Below are positions 31,732 to 38,132 of a stretch of 64,000 nt of DNA, piece by piece. The translations under genes were made by a program, and so were the position numbers. Position 1 is the first letter of the stretch. Each line of letters opens with the position of its first letter. The stretch is from Thermococcus sp. P6 (GTDB lineage Archaea > Methanobacteriota_B > Thermococci > Thermococcales > Thermococcaceae), in assembly GCF_002214525.1 (NCBI RefSeq), contig NZ_CP015104.1:1426001-1490000 (forward strand), in the 5' to 3' direction. The notes beneath the pieces were generated by a model. That model did no database searches, had not been told where the DNA came from, and saw only the letters and a list, made by a program, of their open reading frames with translations.

Positions 31732-32361
31732 CTATCCTCCATCAGGATAGCAGAGGTACCTGTAGGGGCAGAACCTGCACGCGTAGTTGTTCCAGCCCTT
31801 CGGGGGCTTTCCCCTCTCGTAGGCACGCTTGACCGAGTAGAAATGCCTGAGGGTCTCCCTGAACAGCTTCCCGTCGTAGGGAACTTCGAAGGCCCTGAAG
31901 TTCGGCCCCTCAACTATGGGGAAGCGCGAGAAATCGATCTTCCCTATTACCTTCATGGGCTCCTCGTGGAGCTTGATGTAGTAGAGGTAACCGTACTCTG
32001 CCTCCGCCCACCGGAGGTAGATGTTGAGCTGTGCCAGATGGTAGTCGTAGGGGCCCTTCGGAAGGCTCGTCTTACCCTTTATCTCTATCGGAAAATCTCC
32101 TATGGCGTCGACCCTACCGTGTATCTCAAGGCCGAGCCTCCGCGATCGAAGCACCATGTGTTTCTCGAGCTCAAACCCGAACCTCTTCTGCAGGATCTCA
32201 CCGAGGAGGTTGTGTGTGTTTATCCCCTGTTTGAGCCTCACCCTCACGAAGTCTGGCCATCTCTCGGGATAACCCTTGAGGCGGAAGTATATCCTCCTCG
32301 GACAGGTCAACGCTTCGCTGGCGTAGAACTCGAGGAATCCGTCGTTTTCGTCGGTGGACAT
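31732..32361 (-). CDS. Cas4-like RecB-family nuclease (stand-alone)
   Basis: 209 residues. PD-(D/E)XK core: CPRRIYFRLKG near 20, GRVDAI near 106, EIKGKTSLP near 116 and QLNIYLRWAE near 134. Cys20 and the C-terminal CRFCPYRYLCYP (C-x2-C-x5-C) give four cysteines for a 4Fe-4S cluster, as in Cas4. Cas4 proteins cut 3' or 5' ends of DNA; with no other cas gene or array nearby, a repair role is as likely as CRISPR spacer capture. GGAGGGGCG precedes the ATG. Its leader contains a candidate C/D sRNA (32418-32472). Confidence 0.82.
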   Translation of the reverse strand: MSTDENDGFLEFYASEALTCPRRIYFRLKGYPERWPDFVRVRLKQGINTHNLLGEILQKRFGFELEKHMVLRSRRLGLEIHGRVDAIGDFPIEIKGKTSLPKGPYDYHLAQLNIYLRWAEAEYGYLYYIKLHEEPMKVIGKIDFSRFPIVEGPNFRAFEVPYDGKLFRETLRHFYSVKRAYERGKPPKGWNNYACRFCPYRYLCYPDGG

Positions 32362-32383
32362 CGCTCGCCCCTCCGTAGACGGG

Positions 32384-32400
32384 GCGGGTCATCGGCCCGC
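32384..32400 (-). other. Leader hairpin before the Cas4-like gene
   Basis: GCGGG (32384-32388) and CCCGC (32396-32400) can pair around a 7-base loop, between the sRNA and the ribosome site (about 32368-32376). It might separate or stabilise the sRNA and the mRNA parts. Confidence 0.35.
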
Positions 32401-32417
32401 GAACCTCACCGCCCCTC

Positions 32418-32472
32418 TGTCAGCTAATACCGACGTCATCACCCATCAGACTGGGCAAGGGTCTTCATCCGC
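32418..32472 (-). ncRNA. Candidate C/D box sRNA
   Basis: On the minus strand, in order: box C-like CGGATGA (32465-32471), 15-base guide AGACCCUUGCCCAGU, box D' CUGA (32446-32449), 3-base spacer UGG, perfect box C' GUGAUGA (32436-32442), 12-base guide CGUCGGUAUUAG and box D CUGA (32420-32423). Size and spacing match the short C/D RNAs of Thermococcales that direct 2'-O-methylation of rRNA or tRNA. Box C has one core mismatch (GGATGA for TGATGA). A TATA box at 32491-32500 would start transcription near 32472. Targets not assigned. Confidence 0.72.
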
Positions 32473-32490
32473 CGGAAGTTAGAGTCGAGC

Positions 32491-32500
32491 CCATTTAAAC
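32491..32500 (-). promoter_or_regulatory. TATA box for the sRNA and Cas4-like gene
   Basis: GTTTAAATGG on the minus strand with CCCAAAG as BRE upstream. Its centre is about 25 bases before box C of the sRNA. No second promoter is obvious between the sRNA and the nuclease gene. Confidence 0.6.
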
Positions 32501-32521: not shown

Positions 32522-32866
32522 TCAGAACATGTTACCTTCCTGCCTCCTGAGGGAGTAGCTGAGACCGTAGACAGGCCACAGGCTCGGTGTCTGCCGGTAG
32601 TGGTGCAGGTTCCTGAGTATCTTTTCTGCGCTCTCGCGGTTCTTTGCCCTGATGCGGAGGGCGTCTCTTTCAAGCTCCACGATGCCGTTCGGGAGCCGGA
32701 CGATAAGCTTTGAACCATCCACCTCAGGACGGGCCCTCATCAGGAGCCTGCGGTAGTCCTCGTATGCCTCGGGGCTCAGTTTCTGCTCGAGAAGGGCCGA
32801 TTTTTTACGCGGTCTCAACAGGCGGGAAAACCAACTACTCGAGGACTCATCGTCCATACCTCTCAT
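32522..32866 (-). CDS. Uncharacterised small protein
   Basis: 114 residues, no recognised family. The N-terminus is Ser-rich (DDESSSSWFSRLLRPRKK), perhaps disordered; the middle (residues 50-90) could form an alpha/beta unit (SKLIVRLPNGIVELERDALR, then a helix with AEKILRNLHHYR); the tail has several aromatic residues and ends EGNMF. No membrane segment. The ATG at 32866 follows GGGGGT. Codon use fits the neighbours and the frame is long for the local composition, so I consider it a real gene of unknown role. Confidence 0.7.
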   Translation of the reverse strand: MRGMDDESSSSWFSRLLRPRKKSALLEQKLSPEAYEDYRRLLMRARPEVDGSKLIVRLPNGIVELERDALRIRAKNRESAEKILRNLHHYRQTPSLWPVYGLSYSLRRQEGNMF

Positions 32867-37905: not shown

Positions 37906-37950
37906 TTCCATACACCTCCGTACTTTGACCTAATCCCGTTGAATAGGACG

Positions 37951-37966
37951 GCTTTTTAAATCTTTC
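37951..37966 (-). promoter_or_regulatory. EF-1alpha promoter (BRE + TATA)
   Basis: GAAAGATTTAAAAAGC on the minus strand. Expected transcription start is near 37930, giving a leader of about 25 bases with GGAGGTG. The same GAAAGATTTA core is found before EF-2 and tRNA-Thr. Confidence 0.7.
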
Positions 37967-37973
37967 GAACCTC

Positions 37974-38014
37974 GGTCCCCTCGGACGGGAAACCCGTCGT
38001 TTCTCGGGAGGACC
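37974..38014 (-). other. Structured intergenic element, possible small RNA
   Basis: Between the EF-2 and EF-1alpha genes. GGTCC (37974-37978) can pair with GGACC (38010-38014), and inside lies a perfect stem GACGGG/CCCGTC (37984-37989, 37993-37998) with a 3-base loop. On the minus strand a TATA-like AACTTTTTAAAGG (about 38047-38059) is placed to start a transcript near 38026. No C/D boxes and no ACA end were found, so the class is open; a terminator-like hairpin for EF-2 is the alternative. Confidence 0.35.
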
Positions 38015-38132
38015 TCATGAGTTCCGCCTTAAGTTACGGACAGCCTTTAAAAAGTTAACTAAAACGGGGATCCATCCCCATCGAAGACCGCTAAAAAGAA
38101 GGTCGCCGGAGGAATAAAAAGGGTGAAGGGCT

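Follow-up and report, generated by a model that had tools for sequence, protein, structure and literature searches.

The locus described here raises the question of why a guide RNA of the C/D box type stands directly in front of a gene for a Cas4-family nuclease, and whether anything in the shared leader connects the two. It lies on the minus strand of a 64,000-nt stretch of the Thermococcus sp. P6 chromosome, to which we refer as the window. The nuclease ORF (209 amino acids, 31732-32361, minus strand) scores 88.3 bits against the TIGR00372 profile, for which the curated cut-off is 65, and also matches PDDEXK_1, as befits a Cas4-family protein of the PD-(D/E)XK type; its neighbours are non-cas genes. 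The ATG codon, at 32361, is located 59 nt beyond box D of the sRNA, and the Shine-Dalgarno sequence GGAGGG (32369-32374, minus strand) is conserved in the leaders. On the far side of the locus, just upstream of the promoter, there is an ORF of 114 amino acids (32522-32866, minus strand) with no Pfam or NCBIfam match.

The C/D box sRNA

A complete archaeal C/D box sRNA, with four boxes in the order C/D'/C'/D, is evident from the sequence of the minus strand between 32420 and 32471. Its layout is CGGATGA-AGACCCTTGCCCAGT-CTGA-TGG-GTGATGA-CGTCGGTATTAG-CTGA, in agreement with the original prediction of such an RNA of about 52 bases on this strand. In the direction of transcription, it consists of box C (CGGATGA, 32465-32471), the D' guide (32450-32464), box D' (CTGA, 32446-32449), the D'/C' spacer TGG (32443-32445), box C' (GTGATGA, 32436-32442), the D guide (32424-32435), and box D (CTGA, 32420-32423); boxes D', C', and D are also recognizable in the alignment of homologous loci. 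A relaxed version of the four-box pattern matches the 64-kb window once, at this site, and matches nothing in 60 sequences simulated from the window with a first-order Markov model. Boxes C and D form a terminal stem with a k-turn, in which box C supplies the GAU bulge and the GA. In most orthologs this element has the form GCG-GAUGA...CUGA-CGC, with UG/CA in L019; in the window, according to the alignment, the G-C pair is kept and the neighbouring pair is C.A.

The sRNA itself is an already known kind of RNA. An Rfam scan of the region matches it to RF00095 (snoPyro_CD, a Pyrococcus C/D box sRNA) with 38 bits and an E-value of 8e-7, below the gathering score of 45, whereas orthologs from four genera (L007, L034, L101, and L108) exceed that score with 46.5-54.8 bits. 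Boxes, length, and guide core are the same, and the window sRNA is an ortholog of the RF00095 members that itself falls under the cut-off. Compared with the family, the window copy has drifted at the end of the D' guide, where the first base is changed, and in the terminal stem, where one pair is broken. The Rfam entry covers neither the cas4 leader nor the hairpin discussed below. With A as the first base of the D' guide and C.A in the terminal stem, the window copy belongs to the drifted copies within the genus; its genome (G000) measures 1.52 Mb at 99% completeness, and other near-complete Thermococcus genomes span 1.7-2.4 Mb. Another known Thermococcales non-coding RNA, SscA (RF00063), is found in the window at 37929-38025 on the minus strand (83.8 bits).

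Predicted methylation targets in helix 18 of 16S rRNA

A sense-strand scan of the rRNAs of the same genome places the best match of each guide in helix 18 of 16S rRNA (the 530 region), and the two sites are 29 nt apart. The D' guide AGACCCTTGCCCAGT pairs with positions 440-450 of the 16S rRNA (GCTGGGCAAGG), and the D guide CGTCGGTATTAG pairs with positions 470-480 (TAATACCGGCG), in both cases by 10 Watson-Crick pairs and one G.U pair. By the N+5 rule, the nucleotides selected are G444 and U473, and the modifications are probably Gm and Um, respectively; counted back from the 530 loop, these positions correspond to about G505 and about U534 of E. coli. An sRNP made of L7Ae, Nop5, and fibrillarin would thus 2'-O-methylate helix 18 at G444 via the D' guide and at U473 via the D guide. 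Taken singly, the guides are modestly better than their shuffled versions (2.6% and 7.5% of shuffled guides score as well); no pair among 1000 shuffled ones yields two sites as strong as these at a distance of 60 nt or less.

It had been proposed that the guides be compared with the rRNA and tRNA of the same genome, and both turn out to match helix 18. The N+5 targets named at that time need correction: the strings had been written as perfect complements of the guides, from which the actual targets in 16S rRNA depart at a few positions. Targets in 23S rRNA, suggested by a first scan, were rejected because the matches lay on the strand opposite the rRNA, the best sense-strand sites being both in 16S rRNA. 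Of the 44 tRNA loci of the genome, 30 were scanned, and none of these matches the guides as well as the two sites in 16S rRNA do.

The 16S target is identical in six other genomes, and their guides retain the paired core, which is the part of the guides conserved in other genera. In Pyrococcus, position 1 of the D' guide becomes a Watson-Crick pair and the D' pairing reaches position 12; in genera g10 and g11 it extends to 13 positions. Helix 18 is a known hot spot of methylation in Archaea, where crenarchaeal double guides are predicted to act at A535 and G515 (PMC4644070), so the window sRNA is a Thermococcales counterpart, directed to the same region and to other sites. The crenarchaeal RNAs (Tte sR114, Pca sR28, and Sac sR115; PMC4644070) are likewise double guides with two closely spaced targets, but their guide sequences are different, and their E. 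coli positions are A535 and G515 rather than approximately U534 and G505.

Distribution in Thermococcaceae

The sRNA is present throughout Thermococcaceae, in six genera; five of them have it immediately in front of the cas4-like gene, in line with its original placement inside the leader of that gene. This order is seen in 23 of 23 Thermococcus genomes in which the full-length locus could be read, and again, with the sRNA immediately before the ORF, in genera g9, g10, g11, and g12. We take g9 to be Pyrococcus, including P. abyssi, P. horikoshii, and P. yayanosii, and genome G011, in which the 16S coordinates match the published ones, to be T. kodakarensis. In the sixth, Palaeococcus-like genus (g8), one genome of which is presumably that of Palaeococcus pacificus, the sRNA is located elsewhere, apart from cas4. 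Across the 23 aligned genomes the GGATGA of box C is invariant, and in the aligned Thermococcus genomes the guides are nearly so, in contrast to the three variable bases between D' and C'. This is the reverse of the pattern, variable boxes in conserved surroundings, that had been named as speaking against an sRNA.

The g8 loci L030, L031, and L032 have no cas4 behind the sRNA; 4-6 nt past box D they carry a plain, long GC hairpin, possibly a 3' element of the sRNA. In the Pyrococcus locus L034, the H/ACA RNA HgcF (RF00058, 1277-1444) is found back to back with the C/D sRNA (1495-1550), so that two guide RNAs share one intergenic space.

These observations bear on the idea that the boxes do not guide methylation and instead give L7Ae a binding site acting in cis on the nuclease mRNA, as was considered for some leader 'snoRNAs' with k-turns by Jager et al. 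2014 (PMC4247193). Against it stand the conservation of both guides and their match to helix 18, as well as the persistence of the sRNA in g8 with no cas4 downstream; we consider this explanation very improbable.

The promoter and a proposed composite transcript

A TATA box (TTTAAA, 32494-32499, minus strand) precedes the sRNA at a conserved distance: of 71 distinct homologous loci, 68 have their last TATA-like box beginning 26-32 nt ahead of box C. Archaeal transcription starts approximately 23 bp downstream of the TATA box (PMC4247193), and from this spacing the RNA should begin at box C or within a few bases of it, much as the original prediction had it. No second evident TATA box was found between the sRNA and the cas4-like ORF, and 11 leader-encoded snoRNA candidates have been described in T. 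kodakarensis (PMC4247193); on these grounds we infer that the sRNA and the nuclease mRNA are co-transcribed.

The single promoter would accordingly give rise to a composite transcript, of which the first 52 nt or so would be the double-guide sRNA and the remainder the message for a solo Cas4-family nuclease. Release of the sRNA would proceed by protection within the RNP and trimming, so that each transcript may yield either the sRNA or the message, or both if it is cleaved between the two. The T. kodakarensis ortholog may well be already catalogued among the Tko-sR RNAs. The published table of circular RNAs of this species has no entry at the sRNA locus, about 58.3 kb, and circular forms of the sRNA are therefore not evident in that table.

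A kink-turn hairpin between the sRNA and the nuclease gene

Between the sRNA and the Shine-Dalgarno sequence, the window contains a 35-nt hairpin (32381-32415, minus strand), overlooked in the original prediction, with the structure GGGGCGG-T-GA-GG-[TTCGCGGG]-CC-GAT-GA-C-CCGCCCC. The same arrangement, stem-N-GA-GG-loop-CC-NAU-GA-N-stem, which is the layout of a kink-turn, is seen in all 43 distinct Thermococcus leaders and is absent from the 28 leaders examined in other genera. One Thermococcus leader has CU in place of CC, with pairing retained via G.U. Some of the distinct Thermococcus leaders came from a pattern scan of genome contigs, which otherwise matched many unrelated bacteria by chance. 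Neither the tandem GA nor the AU in the bulge varies among the 43 leaders, and the C helix stays paired, while positions 3n and 3b take all four letters each, in nine combinations (the listing of these positions also includes L034 and L078, two chance matches with no stem). Loop lengths are 5 to 8 nt. Three helix pairs are changed on both sides, as compared to a mean of 1.0 in shuffled data (3 of 500 shuffles), and not one of 500 shuffles attains the observed covariation score, in a test that controls for the relatedness of the sequences only in part; sliding the partner strand abolishes the pairing. Layout and covariation together display all parts of a kink-turn, i.e., the C helix, the 3-nt bulge, the tandem G.A/A.G pairs, the variable 3b.3n position, and the NC helix.

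A covariance-model search detects one strong match per genome in 56 of 61 Thermococcus genomes and none in 33 other genomes of the family. The five Thermococcus genomes with no match are drafts, four of them 73-82% complete, and the fifth, G002, with cas4 cut by a contig end. The hairpin follows box D after 3-5 nt and precedes the Shine-Dalgarno sequence by roughly 3-10 nt (6 nt in the window). Folded freely, with no protein, the stem has a probability above 50% in just 24 of the 43 leaders, which neither proves nor disproves it.

Other identities for this element were considered and rejected. It is not an H/ACA RNA, being about 35 nt long and lacking both a pseudouridine pocket and an ACA. 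It is not a DNA operator, as it lies downstream of the expected start of transcription, and the conserved tandem G.A pairs are fitting for RNA. A conserved fold that sequesters the Shine-Dalgarno sequence (in the window, CGCCCC can pair with GGGGCG) was dismissed because the extension of the Shine-Dalgarno sequence that enables it is absent from most leaders; the pairing of the Shine-Dalgarno sequence differs widely among species.

One may ask whether the sRNA and the nuclease gene are ordinary neighbours that merely share a promoter, the hairpin being a neutral stable stem. C/D sRNAs do often occur in leaders or at the ends of ORFs (PMC7994747; PMC4247193), but neutrality is hard to reconcile with compensatory changes and a conserved GA tandem in 43 leaders, or with one strong copy per genome, which makes this account unlikely.

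L7Ae and the possible functions of the hairpin

K-turns with a bulge like this one are the target of L7Ae, which attaches to k-turns both in its own mRNA and in further mRNAs and represses them; the mRNA leaders in which it is known to bind k-turns include that of T. kodakarensis l7ae (PMC5539422; PMC6298567). The archaeal l7ae leaders resemble the cas4 leader in having, in the 5' UTR near the Shine-Dalgarno sequence, a stem-loop with tandem GA and, mostly, a GAU bulge. We regard the Thermococcus hairpin as a likely L7Ae site, judging by its sequence; bound by L7Ae, it would mark the border between the sRNP and the 5' end of the mRNA, and with plentiful L7Ae it may lower or tune translation of the nuclease.

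The cas4 leader nonetheless differs from the l7ae leaders in the gene it precedes, in the C/D sRNA in front, and in the position of the Shine-Dalgarno sequence, which is outside the hairpin. In Thermococcus l7ae leaders, this sequence forms part of the putative k-turn strands or adjoins them. In the parsed cas4 leaders it is found several nucleotides 3' of the stem, and the occluded Shine-Dalgarno sequence typical of the l7ae-type OFF switch was not observed; since the ribosome site lies beyond the closed stem, there is no support for simple occlusion. Initiation might nevertheless be impeded by a bulky stem with L7Ae bound close by, or the main role of the element could be to separate the sRNP from the mRNA. 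Accordingly, an effect on translation and a boundary or processing function are each put forward tentatively, with slightly more doubt than trust.

In its strictest form, the second idea is that the hairpin serves purely in processing and insulation, halting the trimming of the sRNA and folding the 5' end of the mRNA with no translational control. The fixed distance of 3-5 nt from box D and the location of the Shine-Dalgarno sequence outside the hairpin are consistent with this, and so is g8, where the hairpin found in the same place, with no cas4-like ORF adjoining, hints at a role in 3' processing of the sRNA. Yet four genera with the identical sRNA-cas4 order do without the hairpin, and a plain stem would suffice for the purpose, while in Thermococcus the GA pairs and the bulge of the k-turn are conserved. 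This possibility deserves to be taken seriously, though we would not bet on it.

Our preferred reading, held with some confidence, combines a shared transcript, a helix 18 guide, and an L7Ae-bound k-turn at the boundary that would tune the nuclease. One observation against it is that Pyrococcus and three other genera have the sRNA-cas4 order and no hairpin.

Relation to known leaders and implications

C/D sRNAs or k-turn RNAs in 5' UTRs have been reported in the same order of Archaea, namely the leader snoRNAs of T. kodakarensis (PMC4247193) and the k-turn RNA sRkB of P. abyssi (PMC3124441). Unlike these cases, an sRNA with a separate k-turn hairpin before cas4, or a leader k-turn of this kind, was not found in the main texts of the literature searched. 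The type of sRNA is already known; its combination with a k-turn in the leader of a solo cas4 appears to be a new variation on it.

A bolder and rather doubtful proposal is that L7Ae, by occupying the extra k-turn, reports the level of free L7Ae and switches translation of the solo Cas4-family protein, with the same transcript delivering a guide for the decoding centre. If true, the Thermococcus leader would link a DNA nuclease to the supply of an RNP for ribosome biogenesis. The locus occurs genus-wide as a single copy and places a guide for the 16S decoding centre and a stand-alone Cas4 nuclease on one promoter, with a covarying k-turn between them. It makes two matters accessible to experiment in T. 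kodakarensis, a species with genetics: the way in which leader-encoded C/D sRNAs are released from mRNAs and the question whether, in Thermococcales, L7Ae acts on genes beyond the RNP machinery.
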